A stretch of 64,000 bases of DNA, from contig NW_024589871.1 in NCBI RefSeq assembly GCF_018446385.1, positions 434,001 through 498,000 of the forward strand. The letters are read 5' to 3'. Both the position numbers and the translations under genes were made by a program. Under the pieces are notes generated by a model. The model was not told where the DNA came from. It was given only the letters and a program-made list of their open reading frames with translations, and did no database searches. The DNA is from Zingiber officinale. Taxonomy: Eukaryota > Streptophyta > Magnoliopsida > Zingiberales > Zingiberaceae. Below, piece by piece: positions 4,401 to 64,000 of this stretch (position 1 is the stretch's first letter; every line of letters begins with the position of its first letter).

Positions 4401-5301
4401 ATAACATGATTAATATATGCTGATGAAATGGAGTTTCTTTTATTTCTTACTGTTCTGCAGCCAGCTGGAGCTTATGGAGTACTGCAGTACCCTTTAACTC
4501 CAATGCAAAATCAAGCTGCATTTCATAATATAATTCCACCTGTTAATCAAGGGGATTCGCTACAGGGATTCAGTTCTGATATCTCTCCGAACATAGCACC
4601 AAGAAATTTTAATACAACTCAATCTGGCAATTTTATACGTTCTCCATACCCCAGTTTGCCAGGTCTTCAGTATCCAATGTCATATCCAACAAATAATAGA
4701 CATATGGGCAGTTCCCATGTCTCAGGTCAGCCTGTCATTATGAAGACTAATCCAGCAACATCTCCAAGCCCCTCCACAACTTCTGGTGGTCAAATAGAAG
4801 GTTAATGGGTTTCTTAATCTTTCCATCTAGTTCATATCTTTCTGTACTGTTGTTTGTGCTGATGTCTGATTTAAATACCTAGTTTCAGCATGAAATTGAA
4901 ATTTCCTCTAGTGATGAGTTTTTTTTATTATTGATTTAGGCCCTCCTGGAGCTAATTTGTTTATCTATCATATTCCACAAGAATATGGTGATCAAGAGCT
5001 ATCAAGTGCCTTTCAGGGATTTGGAAGAGTTCTAAGTGCTAAAGTTTTTGTAGACAAAGCAACTGGTGTTAGTAAATGCTTTGGTAAACCATCTTTATGC
5101 GCTCTACAGGGTTTGGATCAAATTAATCAGACACCTAAATTATCCTCTTCTCTTGCAGGTTTTGTAAGTTATGATTCACCCGCTGCTGCCCAGACCGCCA
5201 TCAAGATGATGAATGGCTTTCAATTAGGTGGTAAGAAGTTGAAAGTACAACTTAAGAAAGAAAATAAAGCTAACCTCATTAATGGTGATATACACTTATG
5301 A
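1476..5301 (+). CDS. BRUNO/CELF-like RNA-binding protein (BRN1/BRN2-like), 3' part
   Basis: Single-stranded RNA-binding protein of the plant BRN/CELF family; Arabidopsis BRN1 and BRN2 bind 3' UTRs and repress flowering. Exons as read: 1476-1527, 1723-1848, 1969-2048, 2614-2796, 4461-4800, 4940-5083 and 5159-5301, all with GT-AG borders and compatible phases. The first visible exon encodes the inter-RRM linker ([16 protein letters not shown]). RRM2 has RNP2 KLFIGML and RNP1 KGCAFLKY. A basic helix with [15 protein letters not shown] and a Gln/Pro/Asn-rich linker follow. RRM3 has RNP2 LFIYHI and RNP1 KCFGFVSY and ends close to the stop. RRM1 is off the window, so the gene is 5'-partial. The last intron is only 75 nt, has no stop and is a multiple of three, so retention would insert 25 residues inside RNP1. 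The last exon and 3' UTR are duplicated downstream. Family assignment is firm; the orthologue (BRN1 or BRN2) is not resolved. Confidence 0.93.
1598..1613. repeat. Poly-C tract (16 C)
   Basis: An uninterrupted run of 16 cytosines (guanines on the other strand) lies in the intron between the first two visible exons, about 110 bases before an acceptor. It is a simple repeat prone to length change. Confidence 0.9.
3370..3790 (+). mobile_element. Possible decayed Ty3/gypsy pol-end fossil in an intron
   Basis: Translated pieces of this stretch in the 2797-4460 intron resemble the region around the RNase H/integrase junction and the C-terminal end of plant gypsy polyproteins (an ALSKRYSLL-like block near 3400, and a DEDANLR-type block near 3700). 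It is short, old and broken, with no LTR seen. The assignment rests on memory of the family pattern only. Confidence 0.35.
3926..4240 (-). other. Nuclear plastid DNA (NUPT) with trnR-ACG and flanking spacer
   Basis: Read on the minus strand, the segment has a trnR-ACG-like sequence followed by the plastid inverted-repeat spacer as I remember it, including blocks such as AAAATCATGAT and TTTAAAGTTGTGACCCTTCA. It sits inside the 2797-4460 intron of the BRUNO-like gene, antisense to it. Many C-to-T/G-to-A differences from the plastid form, as expected after methylation in the nucleus, suggest an old insertion. Borders are approximate. Confidence 0.8.
4161..4234 (-). pseudogene. trnR-ACG: Plastid-type tRNA-Arg(ACG) pseudogene
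   Basis: The 74-nt minus-strand sequence starts GGGCCTGTAGCTCAAAGGAT, has the anticodon-loop context CTACGAA and ends CTTGCCCA. It matches the plastid trnR-ACG layout (D stem GTAGCTC, T-loop region AATCCGAATCC) with scattered transitions. A T-arm change breaks the usual GGTTCGAATCC box B. Because it lies in a nuclear intron within plastid-derived DNA, it is read as a non-functional copy. Confidence 0.8.
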
Positions 5302-5918
5302 GGAGGTAGCTTCTGCATGTCACCTGTATCATATCTGGCAACAGTGGCCTTCATCTGTACTATGAGCATCAGCAGACAAATGATTCTTCTCGTTACCCAT
5401 TCTATTCTGTTTTAAAGGTCAAAACTGGTAGCTTCGTTACTAGATTCATTGTTTAAATAGCAGAGATGTATTTACGTTGATTCTTTTTGTAACTTATCTA
5501 CCATGGGAGCTTCAATAGATGAATAACAATTTAATTCATTCAATTGTTTCAGTCAGGACTACTGGCACTATACTGGTGAGTATGGCTCAAATTAAATTAA
5601 GTCGCAGTTGAACATGTAAAATTTCAAAATTATATTCCTTCAATTCCTTGTCTACATGTAGAACAAATGAACAATTACATATTCATTGAAACACAAAAAG
5701 ACTTCTCGGTCGTGGAATTGTGTTCAAGGTTTAGTAATTTTTTTAATAGTATCTCTAAGCTTCCTTTGTCCGTAAAATAGTCTACTAAATCTTTTAGTTA
5801 TTCTTGTTGTTTGGATTTGGATGTGTATTCAAACATATTGTCCAATTTGTGAATGCTTAGATTTTTTTTCTAATATGAAATTCATCTAATTTATTTTTTA
5901 TATATATAACTTCATGTT
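5069..5918 (+). repeat. Tandem duplication, copy A: last intron, last exon and 3' UTR of the BRUNO-like gene
   Basis: Bases from about 5069 recur at an offset of 2083 from about 7152, through the 75-nt intron, the last exon, its stop and the 3' flank. By eye there are fewer than ten differences over about 830 bases, for example G/A and T/G changes in the 3' UTR. This copy is attached to the rest of the gene, so it is the ancestral one. The similarity fades in the AT-rich stretch near 5900, just before the plastid insertion. Confidence 0.92.
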
Positions 5919-7151: not shown

Positions 7152-8014
7152 TTAGTAAATGCTTTGGTAAACCATCTTTATGCGCTCTACAGGGTTTGGA
7201 TCAAATTAATCAGACACCTAAATTATCCTCTTCTCTTGCAGGTTTTGTAAGTTATGATTCACCCGCTGCTGCCCAGACCGCCATCAAGATGATGAATGGC
7301 TTTCAATTAGGTGGTAAGAAGTTGAAAGTACAACTTAAGAAAGAAAATAAAGCTAACCTCATTAATGGTGATATACACTTATGAGGAGGTAGCTTCTGCA
7401 TGTCACCTGTATCATATCTGGCAACAGTGGCCTTCATCTGTACTATGAGTATCAGCAGACAAATGATTCTTCTCGTTACCCATTCTATTCTGTTTTAAAG
7501 GTCAAAACTGGTAGCTTCGTTACTAGATTCATTGTTTAAATAGCAGAGATGTATTTACGTTGATTCTTTTTGTAACTTATCTACCATGGGAGCTTCAATA
7601 GATGAATAACAATTTAATTCATTCAATTGTTTCAATCAGGACTACTGGCACTATACTGGTGAGTATGGCTCAAATTAAATTAAGTCGCAGTTGAACATGT
7701 AAAATTTCAAAATTATATTCCTTCAATTCCTTGTCTACATGTAGAACAAATGAACAATTACATATTCATTGAAACACAAGAAGACTTCTCGGTCGTGGAG
7801 GTGTGTTCAAGGTTTAGTAATTTTTTTAATAGTATCTCTAAGCTTCCTTTGTCCGGAAAATAGTCTACTAAATCTTTTAGTTATTCTTGTTGTTTGGATT
7901 TGGATGTGTATTCAAGCATATTGTCCAATTTGTGAATGCTTAGATTTTTTTTTCTAATATGAAATTCATCTAATTTATTTTTTCTCAACAATTACTATAT
8001 ATATAATTTTATGC
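7152..8014 (+). repeat. Tandem duplication, copy B of the BRUNO-like 3' end
   Basis: Near-identical copy of about 5069-5918, shifted by 2083 bases. It contains the 75-nt intron, the terminal exon and the 3' UTR. It lacks the plastid ycf2 and MITE insertions, which therefore entered the interval after copy A following the duplication or differed between the copies from the start. Confidence 0.92.
7242..7384 (+). pseudogene. Orphan terminal exon of the BRUNO-like gene
   Basis: Complete copy of the last exon ([11 protein letters not shown] to the stop at 7382-7384), preceded by the same TCTTGCAG acceptor and encoding the identical C-terminus. It has no upstream exons of its own. Splicing from the donor at 5084 to this acceptor would give the same protein with a different 3' UTR, so it could act as an alternative last exon. 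Otherwise it is a dead duplicate. Confidence 0.75.
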
Positions 8015-8480
8015 TGCGGTGCATAAGGTGCGGTTTTGTGCGGTACTTGTGCCACGTCAGCCGCGTTAAAACGCTCAAAAAAAAAAAAACTGCGCCAACT
8101 CAAGACGCACACTGCGCGAACCACCTCAACACGCGAACCCTAGCCGCCGAAGAGAACCCCCTCGCGCTCCCTGCCGCGCGAAGAGGAAGCCGATTTCCTC
8201 TCCGAAACTTGCCGCGGTCCAGCTCCTCTCCGCGAGCCGTCTCCACCTCCTCTCCGCGAGCCACCTCCTCTCTGCCAGCCACCTTTCTCTCCGCGAGACG
8301 TCTCCTCTCCGCGAACCCTAGCAGAGTGCGGCGCCGCTCAACCGTCTCTAGCCGAAAGTTCTCCCTCTTCGAAACCTGCCGCAAGCCGTCTCCTCTCCGT
8401 GAGCCATCTACTTCCTCTCCGCCACCTTCCTCTTCGCGAGCCACCTCCTTACTCGCCCCCTAAATTATCTCTCCCTCTCC
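8015..8480 (+). other. GC- and CT-rich, internally repetitive block upstream of ESF2
   Basis: This stretch is far richer in GC than its surroundings. It is built from degenerate copies of a motif like CCTCTCCGCGAGCC and includes an A-tract at about 8078-8090. Open frames here are a by-product of the repeat and show no protein similarity I recognise. It may be 5' leader or promoter-proximal sequence of the ESF2-like gene. It has no counterpart in the other copy of the leader, so it was gained or lost after duplication. Confidence 0.5.
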
Positions 8481-18410: not shown

Positions 18411-19962
18411 GAATGTATAATTTATCAAAATTAATTTCACAAGTTTTTTTTTTGGTTTTCCTTCGTTCAATTGTCAATATAAAATGATGAAAAAATTATT
18501 GTAACAATGATCGATCGGTGAATCAACATTTTGAGTTTTTTTTTTGTTTGTTTGAGGGATGAAGAACACCACCAATGAAAAAAAAAAAAAAAAAGTTGGT
18601 CTTTCAACAGCGTTATTGCTCGCCATCATCTATCAAGATCGAGCTGAGATCAAATCGCAATAGTCTGTCTATCATGACCATCACTTGTCACTTACTTAGC
18701 AATTATTGTTATCCATAATCCTTTTGAAATTATTGATCTTTACTAATATTTACCCCACGTGAAGAATATTAAATATAATATATAATCATTAAAAAAAATC
18801 CCAGGTAACCTGTCCAGCTCCACGAAAAATTTCTATCGGTCATCAAAATAAATTAGGAAATGCACGTCATGATCGACTCAGGAGCCTAACATCCTTTAGT
18901 TACGTCTCTCATTTGGAGAAATAATTATTACAAATATATCATATTTGAGATTCAAATCATTAGTATCTGGATGATAATATGAATATCCGACATCATAGCT
19001 CCGGGACACAGGAGAGCCATGCTTCTCACAGAATGAGCCATGATCGAATTTCTAGAGTCACAAAGTTAATGAGAGTCAACTACGAATCCATATTATCATC
19101 CGCCATTACTTCTATGCAGTAGGAGGGACAGCAGAGTCATCGTCAGTTTTCTTATCTCTCAGACGACAGGTTCTCACTAATGATGGAAATGCTAACACGC
19201 AATTTGGCAGTGTATATGGTAATGCAGGAGCTATTCTTCACCAGTTCAATGTAAGTCCAGAAAATGAGAATGGAAGAGAATAGTCTATCATATAAATTAA
19301 AAATATAATTTATGATACATCAGAGTATCTGTGAACTTTTTTTTTTAATTTTATTATTTTTTTGGTATTCATTTTATTTCTCTGAAATCAGTTTGATGGT
19401 CTTGAGAGAAACTAAATATCCCATTGGTTTGAGGAATATAATTGATGGCTTTTTTAATTAATTAATTAATTTTTCTGTTGTATTTAGCTTTCTGTTTATC
19501 TTGTATATAAGCTATGACAATCATCAACAAAATTGATACAAAAAAAACACTCTGAAGTAGGCAGAGTTCTAGCTGAATTTTCTTATATCTAGAAAAGCAA
19601 TGCAAAAGAACATAAGATGCTCTAAAAACTTTCTAACAATAATAACCGCGTATTATATATTTGCCAAGAAATTAAAAAAAAAACTAAAGTTCAGTGAAAA
19701 TAAATTGACTATTAGAATCTTTACCTGTCGCCGCCAAAACATGTATGATTTAAATAACCATTAAGATACATAATGAACTTCATGGAATGATCAAAACAAT
19801 GATGTAGGCATTCAATATAAACATATTATTCACCTGCCTCATCTGCCATGATGTAGATCTTTGTATAAATTCCAAACTAGGGGAAAGACAACCTTAAAAA
19901 AAATATGTTTCTAAATGTTAAAGCCTCTACCAAATGAAGCTCCTGAAACAGATCGGATAACA
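18411..19962. other. Intergenic DNA between convergent genes
   Basis: AT-rich, with A and T homopolymers (for example about 18577-18594). It must contain the polyadenylation regions of the small acidic gene (+) and COG5 (-). I see no supported gene or transposon. Confidence 0.5.
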
Positions 19963-50899: not shown

Positions 50900-51894
50900 C
50901 TAGATCAACTTATAGTCGACCGTCAAATGATTGGGGGTATTATTAGCAAGAAACATTAAAACACCAATTGCACTTAAGTATGACACTCAGAACCAAGAAT
51001 TTTCTCATTATCATTCTAAGGAAGAAAAGAATTCTTTTGTATATCAAGTGATCGAGTAACCATTGGGCTGGTTAATGGGTATAAATTATTCATATTAAAT
51101 CATTTAAAAACTTTCTCAGTATAAATTGATTGATGGATAAAAATACTGTTCTTTAAATACTCGAAATTTCAATCGAGACAAAATTTAGTTTTACCAAAAT
51201 CTTTCATTTCGATTTTTTTAAAATAATCTATTGCATTTAAGATATCTTCAGAAGTGCCAATAATATTTAAATTATCAACATATACAACGATTATTACAAA
51301 ACCATATCCATACCTTTTTATAAAAATACTTGGATAAATATGGTTATTTATATAAGCTTATTTTAACAAATATTCACAAATATGCTTATTTATATAACCT
51401 TATTTTAATAAATATTCACTAAGATAATTATACCACATACGTCTAAATTATTTTAAACCATACAAATATCTTTGTAATCTAATAGAAAATAATTCTCAAG
51501 AATTACATGCTTCTAACATCTTTAGTCCTTCTGGGGCTTTCATGTCTATGTCATTATCTAGTGCATCATATAAATATGTTGTAACGGTATCCATCATCTG
51601 AATATGAAGTCTTCTTTGTGCTACTAAACTAATAAGATAAAAAGTAATAGCATTCATTATAGGAGAATATATCTCTTCATAGTTAATCTTATGTCATTGT
51701 GAAAAAATCTTATGCAACTAGTCGAGTTTTGTATCATACATTCTCAGGTTTTTCATTTTTTTTTTTTGAATACCCATTTATATCTTATTAGTTTAACAAC
51801 TTCAGACATTTCTACAATGGATCCTAAAACCTCATGTTTTAAGAGAGATGTTAGTTCTGTCTGAATTACTTCCTTCCATTTTGGTCAATCCCTT
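50900..51894 (-). mobile_element. Ty1/copia fossil, 3' part (left piece)
   Basis: On the minus strand this piece carries translated similarity to copia reverse transcriptase: the region just before RT near 51780-51890 and the catalytic-box neighbourhood near 51225-51300. It is broken in several places and old, with no LTR identified on the left. It ends exactly at the insertion site of the gypsy element, and the matching part continues beyond that element from 62786. Confidence 0.75.
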
Positions 51895-54218
51895 TGTAAC
51901 GCCCGAAAATTCTCAAATTATTTTTAGAAACATTCTATGATTTTTCTGGAATTTTTAGATATTTTTCCGGAATTTTCCGAGTATCAGAAGTAGCAAAAAT
52001 AATTAGAACCGCAAAATAACTTAGGCGGTAATGGAACCCAAGACCTATGGTATACGGGATAATGTTAGTAACCGGTGAACCCAGCAGGGCCGTGCTGAAA
52101 AAAAGAGGAACCAATTATATTTATATTGGAGTTGGGTTCAATAATCCAACTAATATAAATTAAGAACTTAAGTTGGGTTTGGTTTATTTTAGATTTTGGT
52201 TCGGCAACATCCCTCTCCACCGAAACCCTCACGCCACCCTTCTCCTCTTCCTCCTTCTCTCGGCGCCCCTCTTCCTCCTCCTTCTCACGGCACACCAAGC
52301 CCAAGGGTCAAGGGAACTCCTTCCGGCGACGACTCCAACACGAAAAAGGTTCTTCTCCGCGAGAGGAACGCGAAGACGTGAGCGGATCGTCGAGAAGATC
52401 ATCCCCACCGGAGTTTTAGCGAATAGAATCGTAAGAAATTACGAATAGGAGGTAAGAAACCCCTCACCTGCAGTATAATAGCTCCGTTTGATTTCCTACG
52501 CATTAGTTTTAGCTATATGCAGGTTTTTCCGGCGCTTGGGGTGTGTTTAAACCCTCCTCGAGGATTAGGGATCTAGTTGAGCACCTCTAGACGGGCCGGA
52601 CACGTTGTTCTCCTTTAGTTGGAGATTCTAGACGTTGTCGAGTGCCTAGAGGTGACCTCCCTATTAGAGGAGAGAGTTGGAGCACACCAAGTGTTCGGTA
52701 AAATGTTAGTGTAGCTAAATACCACCTCAGTTATGTTTAATAGCTCAGTTAAATGCATTAGAAGCGTTTAAAACAGTAAATCAGTGTATTTTAGCTTATA
52801 TGGGACTACGGTCCAATGGGTGGGCTCCCATAGTCGCCTCTAGGTTCAGACAACCTAGCTCTAGGTTCAGATAACCTAGAAACAGCAAGTTAGAACAGTT
52901 AGCTATTTTCAGTATTTTATTTTCAGTGGCACTGTACTGGATCAGATATCCATTGGGTTGGACTCCCACAGTCGTCCCTAGGTTTAGATAACCTAGTTAA
53001 CCCTACTAAATTCGGGACTTGCAAACTCGGGTCTAGTTAGGGATGCGCACAGCAAGTACAGTTGCCGGGCCTAAACAGCATGATTATGTATTTTCACTTA
53101 TTATGAAATAGTTTTCAAAACTCAAAACTTGTTATATTAGTTGAGGTTGATTTCAGTATCAGTTTAGCTTCAGTTTAGCTCTTCCTTGTTTATACCTTAT
53201 GATAGCTTATGTTCAGCTTATGTTATGTCATGCTTTGTACGATACCATGCCATGCCATGCTTGCATATTCAGTATGTTCTTTTCAAATAGCATGATTTAA
53301 AATCATATTTGCATTGTTGCATGTTTTTGTGAGGTAGATGGTTTCTTACTAAGCTTTAAGCTTACAGATACTATTTTTCCTTATACTGCAGATAAAGGTA
53401 AAGGAAAGATGGACTAGCAGAGGGAGCTGGAGGACAATGCAAAGGATGGTGTGTGTGGCAGGAACTCGAATAAAAGACCTTGGAGAGTTTAGCAAATTAG
53501 AAACTAGTTCTTCCTTAAGACATTTTCTTATACTTTGCTTTTTATACATTTCTAGTAGTTAAAGGTTGTGAGTTGATGAACCTTGCTTTAGCTTAAGTTT
53601 AGAATTGTTACTACATGTTATTAGAATAGTTTATCATGCATTAGATAGTTGTTATGTGGTATTTTGGCACGCCAGAGTGCTGAAATCAGAGTTTCAGCTC
53701 GAAATCAGAAACCCCTGATCGGTCAGCAGACCGATCAGGGAGTCTCTGATCGGTCGGTAGACCGATCAGGGACCTGATTTCTGCGAACAGCAACTTTATG
53801 TTTGTATTCTGATCGATCTGTGGATCGATCAAGAGCTGGGAAGCCTCTGATCGGTCGGTAGACCGATCCTTGATCTGGTTTCTGCGAACAGAAACTTTCT
53901 GTTCGTTCCCTGATCGATCCGTGGATCGATCAGGAGCTGGATCGCGGCTCACTGATCGATCAGCAGACCGATCAGGGGCCGGCTGGATCGGTCGGCAGAC
54001 CGATCCAGCAACGTACAGAATTACAGCCTAGTTATGGATCGGTCGGTTGAACGATCCAGAGTTTCCTACCGTACCAGTATCGGTAGATCGGTCCGTGGAT
54101 CGATCCGAAGTTAATAGTTTAGCAAAAATTTAAATTAGATCAGTTTTCCGCACAGCCAGTTCAGTACAACTGTAGCGATTCGCCTTACAGCCTAGTAGTT
54201 AGAAGGCGGGTCGTTACA
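51895..54218 (+). repeat. 5' LTR of the gypsy element
   Basis: 2,324 bp, TG...CA ends, directly followed by the primer-binding site. Near its 3' end is an array of nine roughly 22-nt GATC-type palindromes (53716-54107). Small open frames inside the LTR (for example near 52173-52448) recur in the other LTR and are not genes. Confidence 0.93.
53716..54107. repeat. Array of GATCGRTC-type palindromes in the 5' LTR
   Basis: Nine units of the form TGATCGGTC-nnnn-GACCGATCA or TGATCGATC-nnnn-GATCGATCA (some with GGATC ends) occur in under 400 bases. Arms are about 9 nt and loops about 4-5 nt. Spacers contain a second repeated word, TTCTGCGAACAG. The array is slightly shorter in the other LTR. Confidence 0.9.
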
Positions 54219-55759
54219 GAGTGGTATCAGAGCAGTGTTCCATACTTCCTACACTCACATCAGCATTGTACCTGCAGCTTCCAAGTAAGAATACCTTTAC
54301 TTTATTTATGCTCCTTGTCTTGTTATTACAGTTCATGTTTATATGTCTACTGCCTGTTAGTCTGTGCTAGTTTTAAACATGATATCAGTAGTTATATAAC
54401 TATGATTACATTAGTTATGTTATGTTCTCTATGTCTTTAGAAATGACACGAGGACGCCCAGCTAGAAGGGCATTAGCTCATCGAGCCCAAGAAGAGGCGC
54501 GGTGCCTCCTCCGGACCTTACAAGATTAGTGGCTCGATTACAGCAACAGAAATAGCCACCTTAAAGGCTAATCAGAGTACCCCACAGTCACCCCGAACCG
54601 AATTTGACTACTCCGGTAGTCTTGGAGGTTCCACCAGCTCCACCAGCACCAGCAGCCCCAGCAGGTGAGCCAAGAAAGGAAGCCTATCGATCCAGTGGCA
54701 GCGGCAAGCCGGAGAACTTCTCGGGCACTAGTGAACCATGGGATGCACAAGCCGGTTCAAAATATCGGAGAGCACGATGGAGCTTCGGACCGCCGAACAC
54801 GAAGGTGAAGTGTGCCTCATACGCTGACAGAGACGCACGCATGTGGTGGAGAAGAATCGAACGAAGCGCCCAGTGTCATGGGCTGACTTTGAGAAGGAGT
54901 TCTTCGAGGAGTTCTTCCACATACGGGTTACTGAACCGCCACTACGACGAGTTCACCGAGTTTCGTCAACCTTTCATTGAGGAAGCCGTGAAGAAATTCA
55001 ACAGGTTGGCTCGTCTGTGCAAGCTAGTCAGCACGGAGAAGGAACGAATCCGGTTGATGCTCAAGATGCCGAGGCCGAAGATAGTGAACGTGGCTGGTGG
55101 CATACATAGGCCACAAACCACAAAGGAGTTAGTGAGCAGTGCCTTGACCACAGAGCATTACCAGAACAGCATAAAGCAGCAGAAGCAAGTCTCCTCAGAG
55201 TCCAAAGGCCAAGGAAACTCTCACACTCAAAAACAGCAAGGCCACAGCTCTAACTGGAAAGGGAACTCCAACAGCAAGCGCAAATCAGGGAGTGAACCAA
55301 AAGGAGGACCATCTGGCAAGCGACCCAGCTATCCAAAGTGTGCTACTTGTGGGAAATTCCACCCAGGGGTTTGTCGCAAGGGCACACGAGGATGCTTTGA
55401 ATGTGGACAAGAAGGGCACATGGCCAAGCAGTGCCCGAACAAGACCGGTCTTCCTCAGCCACAGCAGATTCAGTATGCAGGCCAGCCAGCTCAGTTATAT
55501 CAGATGCAGGCCACTCTAGAAGGTCCACTTATCAGCCAAGGCAGATTAGAAGCCCCTCCAGCTATGGCGAATGCGAGGATCTACTCACTCACCAGAGAGG
55601 ATGTAGCCAATGCCTCGACTGTTGGTGCAATATCCCTCAGGTCAAGGGTGACCTGGTTAACCAAGCTGAGTCTTGGTTAGGGTTTAGATGTTTGACAATA
55701 AGATATTGATTGAAGAAGAGTCAAGTAGGTCAAGGGAGTGACTGGATACTTGACTGGAA

Positions 55760-55985
55760 AGTCCTAGTGAGTGAAGCTAGGCAGAAGGAAATCCTGGTGA
55801 GTGAAGCCAGGCGAAAGTCCTAGTGAGTGAAGCTAGGCAGAAGGAAATCCTGGTGAGTGAAGCCAGGTGAAAGTCCTAGTGAGTGAAGCTAGGCAGATGG
55901 AAAGTCCTAGTGAGTGAAGCTAGGCAGATGGAAAACCCTAGTGAGTGAAGCTAGGTGAAAAGTCCTGGTGAGTGAAGCCAGGCAA
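55760..55985. repeat. Minisatellite in the solo LTR
   Basis: About eight degenerate units of 25-31 bp built on AGTCCTAGTGAGTGAAGCTA and its variant with CCTGG/CCAGG. Each unit is partly self-complementary (CCTAG...CTAGG or CCTGG...CCAGG). Larger repeats of about 85 bp with CCAAGTAGGTCAAAGGATTG follow to about 56220. Confidence 0.9.
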
Positions 55986-56397
55986 GGAAGGAAATCCAGA
56001 TGGATCAAGGATGATCGGACATCTGGTGTTGGGAAGTCCAAGTAGGTCAAAGGATTGACTGGATACTTGGCAAGGAAGGAAAACCAGATGGATCAAGGAT
56101 GATCGGACATCCGGTGTTGGAAGTCCAAGTAGGTCAAAGGATTGATTGGATACTTGGCAAGGAAGGAAGTCCGATGGGTCAAGGTTGACCGGACATCCGT
56201 GGAAGTCCAAGTAGGTCAATGGAGTGACCGGATTGGCACGACGAGTAAAAGTCCAAGTGGGTCAAAGGATTGACCGACACTTGGTGAGGGAGTCCCGGTC
56301 AAGGGAGTGACCAGATGCGAGGCATGATGTACCAACAGTCAAGGTTGACCGGATGTTGGTTAGGAGGTTTGGGACTTGGTTTTGGGCAAAACCAAGT

Positions 56398-56660
56398 CGG
56401 ATCGATCCGTGGATCGATCCACGGATCGATCGGTGGATCGATCCGGATTCTTTCAGAAGCTCGGATCGATCCGTGGATCGATCGAGGTCCCGATCGATCA
56501 GCCGATCGATCGACGAGCTGCTTCGCGTGATAAGCGCCGGATCGATCCGTGGATCGATCCGTGATCGATCCAGCGCTTTCACGAGCATTGGGGGCGCTCA
56601 ATCGATCCGTGGATCGATTCAGCCCCCCGATCGATTCGAACATTCGAATCGATCGGGATC
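56398..56660. repeat. Array of GATCGATC palindromes in the solo LTR
   Basis: Repeated GGATCGATCCGTGGATCGAT units, with looser variants ending CGATTCGAACATTCGAATCG. The word is the same as in the gypsy LTR arrays although the two LTRs are otherwise unrelated. Peptide-like repeats such as RSTDRS in all frames are translation artefacts of this array. Confidence 0.9.
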
Positions 56661-59600
56661 CCACCGTTGGCGTCGTCCGCAGGCGAGCGTGGTCTTCGGC
56701 ATCTCTTTTACGAGCTCTTCTCAGAGTCATTCCAGCTCCTCCACAGCTCTCTACAAGCACGTGATCGCCAGTTCTTGAAGGTTCTTGGAGGCTTTCCAAG
56801 TCAAGAGGCAGATCTATTGCAAGAGGAAGAAGTTAGGGTTAGGGTTTTTACTGCACATCTTGTAAGCTTTTGCTTAACTTGTATTTCCCTTCCTTCTTCT
56901 TGTACCGAGAGTCTTGTAGGGCTTCTCCGCCCTCGGTAGTTACCGAAAAGGAGTGTTTCATAGTGGAGGGTGCGTGCGTGGTGTGGATCCTTGGATTAGT
57001 CACCTCCTTTGGAGGTGGATACCAAGTAAAATCCTAGTGTTAGCGTAGTTGTATTTGTTTCTGTATTTTCCGCTGCATATTCTTGAAGAAACAAGCAACG
57101 CCGAGCAACGCCAAGCACCGAGCGAACGCGACGAGCTATTCACCCCCCCTCTAGCTACTTTTGATCCTAACATCGACAGTTGTCACAGGTTAGATTAGCA
57201 TTTTTCAGTATAGTGCTACTGTTCTATTTGATACTGGGGCAACCCATTCATATATAGCCAGGGTGTTCTCCGAAAAGTTAGAAATACCCTCAGAAGCACT
57301 CAGTGGTCAATTTTTGACGACACTACTTTCAGGAGAGATCATGGCATCCACGCACTGGCTCAGAGCAGTGCCAGTCATTATAGCAGACAGAGAGCTCTTT
57401 TGTGATCTGATAGTGCTAGAAATGACCGACTATGATGTTATCTTTGGAATGAACTTTCTGATCAGATACGGTGCTACCATAGAGTGCCGTAAACAGAAAG
57501 TCATCTTCCAACCTGAAGCGGCAGTGCAATTCGAATACAGCGGGGAACCAAAGAGAAAGGCCAAGAGGTTTCTCTCAGCTATGAAAGCACAGAAGCTACT
57601 GGACTCAGGGTGTACAGGATTCCTAGCGCATGTAGTCAACGCCAGCCAGGACAAGAACCAACAGCTAGCAGAGGTTCGTGTGACTACCCAGTAGTCTTCC
57701 CTGAAGAGTTACCAGGCTTAGCACCAGACAGGGAGATCGACTTTGAGATAGAGCTCATTCCCGGTACAAATCCTATCTCCAAAGCGCCTTATCGCATGGC
57801 TCCAGCAGAACTGAAGGAACTTCAGGAGCAACTACAGGAGCTGCTCGACAAGGGTTTCATACGCCCGAGTCACTCGCCATGGGGAGCGCCTGTATTGTTC
57901 GTGAAGAAGAAGGATGGAAGCATGCGACTGTGTATAGACTACAGATCACTGAACCAAGTCACGATCAAGAACAGGTATCCCCTTCCCAGAATCGATGATC
58001 TGTTCGACTAGCTAAAGGGAGCAGCAGTGTTCTCTAAGATAGATCTCAGATCAGGTTATCATCAGGTGAAGGTCAAAGAAGGGGACATACCGAAGACAGC
58101 CTTCAGAACCAGATACGGACACTACGAGTTCGTAGTCATGCCCTTTGGCGTGACCAATGCTCCAGCTACATTCATGGATCTCATGAACAGAGTATTCAGG
58201 AAGTATTTAGATAAGTTTGTTATTGTGTTTATCGATGACATTCTTATCTATTCAGGAACTCAAGAAGAACATTCAGAGCACCTGAAACTAGTATTGCAGA
58301 CCCTTCAGCAGAACCAGCTATACGCCAAGTTCACGAAATGTGAATTTTGGTTAGATCAGGTGTCCTTCCTGGGTCACATCATCTCAAAGGATGGTATTAT
58401 GGTAGATCCCAGCAAGATAGAAGCAGTAAGTAACTGGAAGAGACCTAAGAACGCCAGCGAAATCAGGAGCTTTCTGGGATTAACAGGATATTACAGAAAG
58501 TTTGTAGAGGACTTCTCCAGGATAGTCTCCCCACTGACGGCTCTTACCAGGAAGAACAGGAAATTTCAGTGGACAGAGGACTGTCAGCGAGCTAAAAAGG
58601 AGATTGACCAGTGCTCCCATTTTGGCTCTACCAGACAACACCAGCTTTGACATCTATAGTGATGCCTCTAAGTTGGGACTAGGAGCAATCTTGATGCAAA
58701 CGGCAAGGTGATCGCCTATGCCTCACAACTCAAGGATTATGAGAAGAATTATCCTACTCATGACCTTGAGCTTGCAGAATGTTCGCCCTCAAAATTTGGA
58801 GACATTACCTATATGGAGCTCAGTGCAGAGTATCTGATCATGAGTCTGAAGTACTTCTTCACTCAGAAGGATCTGAATATGCGACAGCGTAGATGGTTAG
58901 AGCTGGTCAAAGACTACGATATAGACATCCTCTACCATCCAGGGAAAGCAAATAAGGTAGCAGATGCACTTAGCAGAAAATCCAGTGTTGCCTTATTATC
59001 TCTAGCAGCCATGTCACCAACCCTACAGAAGGAGATCGTAAATTTCGGTCTCGAACTCATCGTTGGGCAGCTCTCTACTATGACCTTAGAGTCTACCTTG
59101 CTTGGTGATATTCAGTCAGCTCTAGAACAGGACCCTGAAATTCAGAAAATCAAGCAAGGGCTAGCAGAATCAAAGAGTAGAGAATTCAGAGTGTCCGATA
59201 GCGGGGTGTTGTATTTTGGTGACAGACTCTGTGTTCCAGATCAGGAGGAGCTACGGAGACAGATTTTAGATGAGGCTCACAGGACTCCCTATGCGATGCA
59301 TCCAGGTTCCACCAAAATGTATCAAGACCTGAAGAACCGTTTTTGGTGGTCCGGGATGAAGCAAGACATCGCCAGATATGTTAGCATCTGCCTCACCTCA
59401 GAGGGTAAAGGCAGAACATCAGCGACCAGGAGGAGTTCTGCAGCCTATACAGATTCCAGAATGGAAGTGGGAGGATATCTCCATGGATTTCATAGTGGGA
59501 CTACCCAGAACCACGAACGGTTTTGACGTCATCTGGGTAATAGTCGACAGGTTGACTAAATCAGCCCACTTTTTAGCTATCAAGATATCCTACTCCATGG

Positions 59601-60508
59601 AGAAGCTAGTTCAGTTGTATCTCCAGGAGATCGTCAGACTTCATGGAGTCCCACGTACTATTATTTCGATGAGATGAGGTTTACATCATACTTCGGGAGT
59701 GTGTACAACAAGATTGGGCACGGTTAAAGTTCAAGACAACATTCCATCCGCAGATGGATGGACAGCAAAGTAAATCAGTACTCAAGATATGCTCCGAGCG
59801 TGTGCCCTAGACTTCAGGAAGTTGGTGCAAATATCCGAGCTTAGCGGAATTTGCATACAACAACTATCGTGCCACTATCGGCATGGCACCTTATGAGGCT
59901 CTCTACGGAGGTGTAGATCTCCAATCTGGTAGTATGAGTGGTGAACAGAAGGAACTAGAGCTTGAGACAGATCTAGTAGCAGATACCACAGCTGCACAAC
60001 AGATCCACCAGAGGATAGAGAGCCAAAAGCTATCCGATACCCTAGACCCTTAGAGTTTTCGGGGGATGCGGTGTTCTCGAGTAGCTCCCATGAAGGGAGT
60101 AATGCGTTTTGGGAAGAAGGGCAAGCTAAGTCCCAGATATGTGGGACCATACCTTATCAGCAGAAGAGTGGGCAAGGTAGCATATGAGCTAGAGCTACCC
60201 CAGGAAATGTCAGCTGTCCACAACGTATTTCATGTCTCTATGCTGAAGAAGCATACCCCAGATGTCACTCAGGTGATTGAGCCCCAGTCGGTACAGATCC
60301 GTGAAGACCTCAGCTATGAGAGTCGGCCTATTCAGATAATAGACCGAGCAGTTAAGAAATTGCGGAACAAGGAAGTACCATTAGTCAAAGTCATTTGGCA
60401 CAGTCACACAGCAGAAGAGGCAACTTGGGAGTCAGAAGCCAGCATGAGACAGAAGTTCCCAGAATTATTCTAAGTTCGAGGACGAACTTTTTATAAGGTA
60501 TGGGGAGT

Positions 60509-62785
60509 TGTAACGCCCGAAAATTCTCAAATTATTTTTAGAAACATTCTATGATTTTTCTGGAATTTTTAGATATTTTTCCGGAATTTTCCGAGTATCG
60601 GAAGTAGCAAAAATAATTAGAACCGCAAAATAGCTTAGGCGGGAATGGAACCCGAGACCTATGGTATACGGGATAATGTTAGTAACCGGTGAACCCAGCA
60701 GGGCCGTGCTGAAAAAAAGAGGAACCAATTATATTTATATTGGAGTTGGGTTCAATAATCCAACTAATATAAATTAAGAACTTAAGTTGGGTTTGGTTTA
60801 TTTTAGATTTTGGTTCGGCAACATCCCTCTCCACCGAAACCCTCACGCCACCCTTCTCCTCTTCCTCCTTCTCTCGGCGCCCCTCTTCCTCCTCCTTCTC
60901 ACAGCACACCAAGCCCAAGGGTCAAGGGAACTCCTTCCGGCGACGACTCCAACACGAAAAAGGTTCTTCTCCGCGAGAGGAACGCGAAGACGTGAGCGGA
61001 TCGTCGAGAAGATCATCCCCACCGGAGTTTTAGCGAATAGAATCGTAAGAAATTACGAATAGGAGGTAAGAAACCCCTCACCTGCAGTATAATAGCTCCG
61101 TTTGATTTCCCACGCATTAGTTTTAGCTATATGCAGGTTTTTCCGGCGCTTGGGGTGTGTTTAAACCCTCCTCGAGGATTAGGGATCTAGTTGAGCACCT
61201 CTAGACGGGCCGGACACGTTGTTCTCCTTTAGTTGGAGATTCTAGACGTTGTCGGGTGTCTAGAGGTGACCTCCCTATTAGAGGAGAGAGTTGGAGCACA
61301 CCAAGTGTTCGGTAAAATGTTAGTGTAGCTAAATACCACCTCAGTTATGTTTAATAGCTCAGTTAAATGCATTAGAAGCGTTTAAAACAGTAAATCAGTG
61401 TATTTTAGCTTATATGGGACTACGGTCCAATGGGTGGGCTCCCATATTCGCCTCTAGGTTCAGACAACCTAGCTCTAGGTTTAGATAACCTAGAAACAGC
61501 AAGTTAGAACAGTTAGCTATTTTCAGTATTTTATTTTCAGTGGCACTGTACTGGATCAGATATCCATTGGGTTGGACTCCCACAGTCGTCCCTAGGTTTA
61601 GATAACCTAGTTAACCCTACTAAATTCGGGACTTGCAAACTCGGGTCTAGTTAGGGATGCGCGCACAGCTGTCGGGCCCAAACAGCATGATTATGTATTT
61701 TCACTTATTATGAAATAGTTTTCAAAACTCAAAACTTGTTATATTAGTTGAGGTTGATTTCAGTATCAGTTTAGCTTCAGTTTAGCTCTTCCTTGTTTAT
61801 ACCTTATGATAGCTTATGTTCAGCTTATGTTATGTCATGCTTTGTACGATACCATGCCATGTCATGCTTGCATATTCAGTATGTTCTTTTCAAATAGCAT
61901 GATTTAAAATCATATTTGCATCGTTGCATGTTTTTGTGAGGTAGATGGTTTCTTACTAAGCTTTAACCTTACAGATACTATTTTTCCTTATACTGCAGAT
62001 AAAGGTAAAAGAAAGATGGACTAGCAGAGGGAGCTGGAGGACAATGCAAAGGATGGTGTGTGTGGCAGGAACTGGAATAAAAGACCTTGGAGAGTTTAGC
62101 AAATTAGAAACTAGTTCTTCCTTAAGACATTTTCTTATACTTTGCTTTTTATGCATTTCTAGTAGTTAAAGGTTGTGAGTTGATGAACCTTGCTTTAGCT
62201 TAAGTTTAGAATTGTTACTACATGTTATTAGAATAGTTTATCATGCATTAGATAGTTGTTATGTGGTATTTTGGCACGCCAGAGTGCTGAAATCAGAGTT
62301 TCAGCTCGAAATCAGAAACCCCTGATCGGTCAGCAGACCGATCAGGGAGTCTCTGATCGGTCGGTAGACCGTATTCTGATCGATCTGTGGATCGATCAAG
62401 AGCTGGGAAGCCTCTGATCGGTCGGTAGACCGATCAGCGATCTGGTTTCTGCGAACAGAAACTTTCTGTTCGTTCCCTGATCGATCCGTGGATCGATCAG
62501 GAGCTGGATCGCGGCTCACTGATCGGTCAGCAGACTGATCAGGGGCCGGCTGGATCGGTCGACAGACCGATCCAGCAGCGTACAGAATTATAGCCTAGTT
62601 ATGGATCGGTCGGCTGAACGATCCGGAGTTTCCTACCGTACCAGTATCAGTAGATCGGTCTGTGGATCGATCCGAAGTTAATAGTTTAGCAAAAATTTAA
62701 ATTAGATCAGTTTTCCGCACAGCCAGTTCAGTACAACTGTAGCGATTCGTCTTACAGCCTAGTAGTTAGAAGGCGGATCGTTACA
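60509..62785 (+). repeat. 3' LTR of the gypsy element
   Basis: 2,277 bp, the direct counterpart of 51895-54218, preceded by a purine-rich stretch (AAGGTATGGGGAG) suitable as polypurine tract. It differs from the 5' LTR by scattered substitutions and small indels, mostly within the palindrome array. Confidence 0.93.
62322..62672. repeat. Palindrome array in the 3' LTR
   Basis: Counterpart of the array at 53716-54107 with one stretch of about 40 bases fewer, which suggests that the palindromes promote small deletions. Confidence 0.88.
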
Positions 62786-64000
62786 CCCTTCTTGATCGAC
62801 ATTCCTTTAAAGTCATGGGTTGAAAGTCCTCATTCATAATATCAATTGCCACATTGTATGTAAATATATCAACAATATTTGTATTTGTTCGATCTCATTG
62901 TAGAAATGTAATTTATCAATATTTCTTATTTATTTCTTTCAACTTCTTCTGGAAGTTTTTCCTTATTGAAATAATGAATTATTTCCGTTTCTATATGATC
63001 AATTTGCCCATTTATTCCTCTTTTCTTTTGAGGGTTTATCCTTAGAATCCATTTGTTCCTTGGTTGATTAATGCATAAATACTCGTTATTTCCATATTGG
63101 TTGTTTCGAATGATAGCCATTAAAATGAACATATTTAAAACTTAATAATTTTTTATGGGACTTGAGTGGAAATAATGCATTGTTGATCAAAAAATTAGTC
63201 CCTTCTAGTAGTTAAACATTTGTTTTACCGGAGCCTTCGATTAAGGTTATACTAACCCGAAATAATATTCACAATTTGCTTTTTCATAATAAGATGAGAG
63301 AAATATCTTTTGTTTAGAAATTTATATGTGTAGTCACATACTACGAGACAGAGATTCTCATCTTCGATCTTTAATCCCAGTTTAGATGCAATAATATCCA
63401 CGAGTCTTTCAAAAAAACAAACAAACAATAAACTTGAATTTATTATAGATATTAAGGAATGAAAATAATTACATTAATTAAAATCATCAAATTCAACGTT
63501 ATCTAAAAAAATCACTAACTTTTAGTTGAGGTAAATTTTCAAGACCCTCACAAATATTATTAGCATTATTTTAAGATAGAGTATTTGCCTCGACATTCTT
63601 CTTCTTTTCCTTCAATGAAACTTCATAAAGCTCGTTAAGATACTTTGGCATACGATAGGTATGCGGCCAATGTCCAAACACTCAACATCCGTAGTTTTTA
63701 TTCTCAACATTTTAATTAGATCCACTTTTTTTCTTGTTTTGTCTCATTATTTTTCCACTTTTGATGATTTGTATGTCCACTACGATCATTACAGTAAACA
63801 TTCTAGCCATGACCACTGTCATGAAGATAGCCACGTCCTTGACGATGACTATTTCCACATCCTCATCCACGTCTAGAATTGTTGTCAGTTGACACATTCA
63901 CTTCAGGGAATGGACTAGAGCAGTTGGACAAGATTCATGATTTTATTAATAATTATTGGTGCAATCGTCCTTGGGAGTGAAACACTTGGTGTTGGATCCT
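62786..64000 (-). mobile_element. Ty1/copia fossil, 5' part (right piece), runs off the edge
   Basis: The minus strand shows the stretch that precedes reverse transcriptase in copia polyproteins (near 62790-62880) next to the gypsy target duplication. Further right, at about 63700-63890, a Gly/Arg/His-type region like copia gag is recognisable by its degenerate repeats. It is old and broken, and the rest of the element lies beyond the window. Confidence 0.6.

Follow-up and report, generated by a model that had tools for sequence, protein, structure and literature searches.

A Gypsy element with a nested solo LTR

The window, by which the whole 64,000-nt stretch of Zingiber officinale DNA under study is meant (C90:434001-498000 of a 3.09-Gb, 211-contig genome), contains a Ty3/Gypsy retrotransposon with a solo long terminal repeat (LTR) of Sirevirus type nested in its gag, and both types of LTR carry dense arrays of one palindromic unit, GATCGRTC-N4-GAYCGATC (Table 1). 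An earlier model-made reading of the letters (the sequence-only reading) had described such arrays, their position in the 3' half of the LTRs and the dissimilarity of the two LTR types in all other respects, and each of these observations was confirmed. Once the palindromes are masked nothing detectable is held in common, the Gypsy array regions matching the Gypsy LTR only and the solo array region matching Sirevirus-type LTRs only; a match of 106 bp at 100% between the two window regions arises solely from the overlap of their 1.2-kb flanks. The coordinates formerly given for the LTRs mark the arrays, the LTRs proper being those of Table 1.

The window holds 23 occurrences of the word GATCGATC, compared with 0.68 expected and a maximum of 3 in 100 shuffles, and 22 of them lie inside the three arrays (the other is at 18509). 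The units themselves run from 53717 to 54105 in the 5' Gypsy LTR and from 62324 to 62672 in the 3' LTR. The 3' Gypsy LTR has two units fewer than the 5' LTR, which is explained by a deletion of about 40 bp plus a point change. In the solo LTR, GATCGRTC-N4-GAYCGATC units span 56400-56559 and are accompanied by neighbours with 3-nt and 8-nt spacers; the observed/expected CpG ratio is 1.88 in this array versus 0.38 and 0.85 in the LTR flanks. Upstream of the array, at 55640-56340, the same LTR has tandem repeats rich in GGTCAA/TTGACC words, which we take to be W-box-like.

The Gypsy LTRs are about 2.3 kb long, and CCCTT flanks the element on both outer sides (51890-51894 and 62786-62790), read as a target site duplication (TSD). 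The primer binding site (PBS) is presumably of the initiator Met tRNA type. With domains in the order zinc-knuckle gag, RVP_2, RVT_1, Integrase_H2C2 and C-terminal SH3/weak chromodomain, the element appears to be a chromovirus-like Ty3/Gypsy member, the chromodomain match being sub-threshold in Pfam. The solo LTR is bounded by a clean TSD, TCGAC, at 55615-55619 and 57173-57177, and in it, as in the sampled loci described below, a poly-C integrase signal is present near the LTR 3' end.

Table 1. Positions of the Gypsy element, the nested solo LTR and the palindrome arrays in the window
Feature	Positions	Strand	Remarks
Gypsy 5' LTR	51895-54218	+	ends TGTAACGCC...CGTTACA
Gypsy 5' LTR array	53715-54107	+	8 units: 4 GATCGGTC/GACCGATC, 2 GATCGATC/GATCGATC, 2 mixed
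Gypsy primer binding site	54222-54233	+	TGGTATCAGAGC
Open frame with gag zinc knuckle	54565-55680	+	letters from 55620 on belong to the solo LTR
Solo LTR, Sirevirus type	55620-57172	+	1,553 bp; TGTTGG...CTAACA; CACCCCCCCTCTAGC near 3' end
Solo LTR array	56398-56656	+	GATCGATC and AATCGATC forms; GG form absent
Aspartic protease RVP_2, Gypsy	57194-57694	+	domain match
Reverse transcriptase RVT_1, Gypsy	58012-58650	+	domain match
Integrase_H2C2 and RT_RNaseH	58672-59526	+	RT_RNaseH slightly below its cut-off
Tf2-1-like SH3 and weak chromodomain	60054-60470	+	E 7.5e-4, under Pfam cut-off
Gypsy 3' LTR	60509-62785	+	98.6% and 96.6% identical to 5' LTR in two aligned pieces
Gypsy 3' LTR array	62322-62674	+	6 units

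Abundance and symmetry of the unit

The genome-wide motif scan proposed by the sequence-only reading was run and returned 103,372 perfect GATCGATC/GATCGATC units of 8-4-8 architecture versus 51 for the reversed control, together with 156,429 GATCGGTC/GACCGATC and 101,245 AATCGATC/GATCGATT units (control 0 for both), so that the three perfect forms amount to 361,046 dyads. The same three words head the 4-nt-spacer class (98 for GATCGGTC, 57 for GATCGATC and 35 for AATCGATC, of 239) in an inverted-repeat scan with perfect arms of at least 8 nt over 295 kb of fetched sequence, most of which comes from loci fetched because they bear the motif. A GATC microsatellite was rejected as the identity of the arrays, since the reversed control gives 51 and the spacers vary between units.

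The two arms change together. In genome-wide counts that take in many related copies, mixed-arm units number 11,535 at arm position 6, where about 130,480 would be expected under arm independence, and 33,746 at position 1, where the expectation is 119,172. Arm positions 9 and 10, to which the search pattern does not extend, show complementarity in fractions of 0.86 and 0.78 among 228 distinct units (0.38 and 0.47 with shuffled partners), and the values hardly move when one unit is taken per 600-nt bin (n=77; 0.85 and 0.78 vs 0.40 and 0.49). The unit is thus about 10-4-10, a dyad of roughly 24 bp rather than the 22 nt first estimated. Positions 11-13 are weakly above shuffle, the symmetry fading gradually away from the centre. 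When only the 17 Gypsy units are taken, complementarity is significant at position 9 (0.71 vs 0.37, 0 of 500 shuffles); in two groups introduced below, TIR (terminal inverted repeat elements; 12 units) and L026 (4 units), positions 9-10 are near-invariant or not above shuffle.

Carriers and exchange of the arrays

Single-linkage clustering with 1.2-kb flanks lumped 50 of the 54 array regions together and was abandoned; the lumping comes from nesting of elements, from overlap between flanks in the window and from repeats that the LTRs share, and reference LTRs with masked palindromes were therefore used instead. Loci were assigned to the Sirevirus type by the PBS junction CA/AGTGGTATCAGAGC, a poly-C signal close to the LTR end and Copia gag/pol domains. 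The junction CA/A(T or G)TGGTATCAGAGC is present in the sampled loci, the PBS-junction 18-mer AACAAGTGGTATCAGAGC has 32,080 exact copies in the genome, and one Sirevirus-type LTR-end tag has 12,233. The GATCGATC/GATCGATC sample consisted of the first 88 distinct units on contig C1 among the matches listed (100, with 12 units appearing on both strands), and all of them fall in 20 loci: 19 have Sirevirus-type LTR sequence outside the palindromes, L010 being the weakest assignment, and one, L015, is related to the Gypsy element of the window. For the GG form, 10 regions covering 51 of 100 listed sites were sampled. Strong similarity to Sirevirus-type LTRs was found in six (L025, L027, L029, L030, L032 and L034) and weak similarity in L033; L027, L029 and L030 match chiefly the L016 type, which is called Sirevirus on its PBS alone. 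Two of the remaining regions belong to class II elements, L028 being a miniature inverted-repeat transposable element (MITE) and L031 a terminus of a TIR element. The last, L026, has its array about 1.8 kb beyond the end of a fetched stretch (L052) with Copia integrase and RVT_2 (E 5.3e-43), and array and pol probably belong to the same element. The Copia pol order, integrase (INT) before reverse transcriptase (RT, RVT_2), was seen in this one array-bearing region. An open frame downstream of the L026 array (L026:1630-1974), near the Copia pol, is a possible env-like or extra open reading frame (ORF); a Pfam scan of it gave no match.

Seven Sirevirus-type elements of about 6.6-9.8 kb have an array-bearing LTR at either end (L005, L006, L012, L020, L022, L023 and L024). 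A motif search of these picked up gag zinc knuckles and neither RT nor INT motifs of Copia type, and they are apparently gag-only, non-autonomous copies; linker copies of the palindrome are present in such gag-only elements as well. The form of the linker array agrees with that of the LTR array in all nine elements compared, of which L017 and L018 have one LTR each: L005, L006, L012, L018, L022, L023 and L024 have the AA form, and L017 and L020 mainly the GG form. This agreement may reflect only two lineages.

Movement of an array as a block is clearest for the MITE. One MULE-like MITE with long TIRs is represented by L028 and L046, each with 5 units and flanking repeats of roughly 9 bp (read by eye). 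The MITE array is collinear with the Sirevirus-type array of L030, spacers included (81% over 271 bp), and the alignment scores 221 bits, with 153 the highest value among 40 spacer-shuffled controls, so the array was copied as a block between a Sirevirus-type element and the MITE. Arrays were absent from all five ends examined of related 6.5-7.7-kb MULE-like TIR elements, which rules them out as a property of the MITE's MULE-like parent and for the same reason suggests the direction from Sirevirus to MITE. A second TIR family has 2-5 units just inside its termini at all eight ends examined (L031, L040-L045 and L047; both ends in the C1, C64 and C10 copies). It sits in TA dinucleotide runs and occurs as 9-18-kb copies and as 0.3-0.5-kb inverted pairs. 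Its best Sirevirus-type match reaches 156 bits versus a control maximum of 132, which makes array transfer into this family likely, and the corresponding comparison for the L026 array is at control level (113 vs 115). In the window, sequence related to this TIR family at about 8000-8180 is without an array; 830-bp direct repeats, 99% identical and 2 kb apart (5069-5899 and 7152-7983), adjoin this array-free relative.

Gypsy arrays have a history of their own. A tag of 19 nt immediately upstream of the array has 126 genomic sites, with GATCGGTC at most 12 nt away in 97 of them, and the array is therefore a feature of that Gypsy subfamily. Three relatives (L048-L050) share 93% identity across the initial 1.58 kb of the LTR and only 48-51% in the array region, yet contain 3, 3 and 6 units there. 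Another relative, L051, is 94% identical upstream, and its array is 97% identical but the adjacent 235 bp only 59%. Beyond the array, similarity among the relatives is back to 85-92%. The Gypsy array region is thus a mosaic in which array blocks appear to have been swapped between subfamilies, and the dyads are kept while the surrounding sequence differs. A further short perfect palindrome, GATACAGTAG-G-CTACTGTATC, lies in the Gypsy spacers (L050, about 391-412).

Exchange between Gypsy and Sirevirus-type elements was assessed with five Gypsy queries against Sirevirus-type loci, the best of 40 shuffles serving as control. Four of the queries are at or slightly over the shuffle maximum (99.7 vs 99.7, 75.4 vs 72.5, 112 vs 108 and 79.7 vs 78.3), and the fifth is clearly over it (72.5 vs 61.1 bits). 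The longest common word outside the cores has 17 letters versus at most 15 in 20 shuffles. The shuffle controls retain the core and two flanking bases and lose the longer symmetric flanks, and a slight excess of the Gypsy scores is therefore expected. Of the options offered by the sequence-only reading, which also named convergent binding sites and template switching, a mobile mini-repeat that spreads between LTRs gains a demonstrated case in the MITE and a likely one in the TIR family; for the Gypsy LTR such transfer is a candidate route that these alignments neither demonstrate nor contradict.

Known counterparts and competing explanations

The available text of the Ty1/copia study by Bousios et al. 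2010 (PMC2829016) describes a repeated motif (RM), called Sirevirus-specific there, as palindromic, CpG-rich boxes with CGG-CCG cores that occur in high copy number in the LTRs and the linker. The published cluster begins 200-400 bp into the LTR, in its upper half, with a conserved TATA box just after it, and extra linker copies lie upstream of the env-like ORF. Since the solo LTR bears the marks of a Sirevirus (Copia), its arrays match this published motif, and the earlier statement that no description was known fails for this LTR type. The likeness extends to the many palindromic copies per LTR and to the CpG-island character of the solo LTR array. Linker copies are seen here too, and the L026 array lies upstream of an open frame that is a mere candidate for an env-like ORF. 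Among the published boxes in that text, CGGTCTGACCG (Osr10), CGGTCAGACCG (Osr8) and CGGTCGACCG (Vitis) contain CGGTC..GACCG, as does GATCGGTC-N4-GACCGATC. The CGG-CCG core is present in the GATCGGTC/GACCGATC form and absent from the GATCGATC form of the solo LTR, as it is from the published Tnd-1. In contrast to the RM, the ginger unit has a 4-nt spacer, arms of about 10 bp and a sister form without CGG (GATCGATC), and its arrays are also found in Gypsy and class II elements. Sharing between superfamilies was not without mention either: the available portion of Martin et al. 2023 (PMC10760457) reports a maize Sirevirus palindrome, CACCGGACNNNGTCCGGTG, in both Copia and Helitron elements, which is a precedent. 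Both cases involve a Sirevirus-type palindrome in a second superfamily of transposable elements (TEs); the cis-regulatory LTR region and the link to small RNAs described for maize would have their putative counterparts here. The sequence differs, however, as do the recipients (Helitrons in maize; Gypsy, a MITE and a TIR family here), and collinear block transfer is demonstrated here for one recipient. In the literature on retrotransposon and plant palindromes and on ginger Sireviruses, no account of these arrays appeared among the matches listed, as far as titles and the starts of abstracts tell.

The explanation that we favour, and regard as probable, is that the arrays constitute a cis-regulatory module with dyad symmetry, portable between TE superfamilies. 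They would represent the GATCGRTC version of the Sirevirus RM, occupying both the LTRs and the linker of Sirevirus-type Copia elements, from which the module would have been copied as a block into the MULE-like MITE and probably into the TIR family; it is also found in the chromovirus-like Gypsy LTR, which it may have entered by some route as well. The fixed 8-bp core, the tolerance of spacer changes, the LTR/linker placement and the reuse by unrelated elements together point to a cis-regulatory array read by a two-fold factor. Clustered two-fold sites could thus bind a putative dimeric DNA-binding factor that would raise transcription from the adjacent element promoter; as a side effect, read-through transcripts might form hairpins able to feed small RNAs, and either selection for pairing or copying from hairpin templates would maintain the symmetry. 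A stronger version, in which the cassette itself is the spreading unit, traded among Copia, Gypsy, MULE-like MITE and TIR elements and served by one trans-acting factor, is conceivable, though we would not call it probable. Several results weigh against the portable module. No clear block homology links the Gypsy arrays to the 53 sampled Sirevirus-type array zones; position 10 is not significant among the 17 Gypsy units alone (0.65 vs 0.48, 59 of 500 shuffles); the covariation, its copies being related, shows symmetric founding lineages for each form and not selection on each copy; and in the solo LTR, 1,553 bp long, the array begins only after 780 bp, at odds with the published placement.

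Arrays of this kind were known before in Sireviruses; new are the distinct dyad, its very high copy number, the Gypsy host, the class II hosts and one block transfer. Their occurrence in two retrotransposon superfamilies and in DNA transposons lets element history be separated from array function, with the expectation that one factor or one set of small RNAs should act on all recipients, and suggests that TE promoters can be rewired through cassette exchange across superfamilies. Why Sireviruses retain hairpin-forming palindromes that possibly invite silencing is a question raised in the available text of PMC10760457.

The portable module competes with convergence, in which the Gypsy LTR evolved its dyads independently and both elements exploit one host transcription factor with no exchange of DNA. 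This is a serious contender, if somewhat short of probable: outside the dyads there is no clear Gypsy/Sirevirus-type homology, four of the queries stay near the shuffle maximum, and Gypsy arrays mix GG and AA forms where Sirevirus-type arrays are more uniform. The fifth query and the 17-letter word argue the other way, as does the block transfer documented for the MITE, and the quick spacer turnover visible even within Gypsy would erase old homology. A different proposal, that the palindromes act as RNA or single-strand DNA hairpins or as small-RNA templates instead of protein sites, with arms co-varying for pairing, seems to us rather unlikely. It would account for the covariation in the core and at positions 9-10, and weakly to 13, although the co-change of the arms is compatible with pairing and with hairpin-templated copying alike. 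Compared with mononucleotide shuffles (20 per array), the arrays show stronger folding, as palindromes do by construction; the mean z is -12.9 over those 47 arrays, of 59, whose orientation could be assigned. Single mismatches on the LTR sense strand comprise 33 G-T, 15 A-C and 11 others; the ratio of 33:15 (binomial p 0.013) counts related copies as independent, and transcription-linked mutation could explain it. Maize work, in the available text of PMC10760457, ties such palindromes to small RNAs, but the core GATCGRTC is invariant beyond what pairing alone demands.

Two further explanations were weighed. Snap-back template switching in reverse transcription or replication could perfect and multiply quasi-palindromes that have no function, which would fit the gradual loss of symmetry from the centre and the differing arrays in the two LTRs of one element. 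That one 8-bp core is kept across Copia-type, Gypsy and class II elements, and that Gypsy-family dyads persist amid differing surroundings, makes such a purely mechanical origin distinctly improbable. We give equally little credence to an element-encoded factor, VANC-like or TNPA-like, that would read the arrays and counter silencing, with other TEs hijacking it. The agreement of linker and LTR forms in nine of nine elements would be expected if one factor read both. The VANC targets of VANDAL elements, according to the available text of PMC10398659 and PMC5735166, are likewise fast-changing repeats of short motifs, clustered in noncoding TE regions and subject to rapid turnover and concerted change, although the word palindrome is absent from the main text of PMC5735166. 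The VANDAL motifs are read by the encoded VANC protein, an anti-silencing factor that removes methylation, whereas no counterpart and no convincing DNA-binding protein emerged among the few frames scanned here; the frame downstream of the L026 array is without a Pfam match, and the seven LTR-bounded elements show gag knuckles and no Copia RT/INT motif. In favour of such a factor, an internal frame of one array-bearing element (L024:3866-4387, minus strand) gives a weak bZIP_1 match, with E 0.0084, below the Pfam cut-off.

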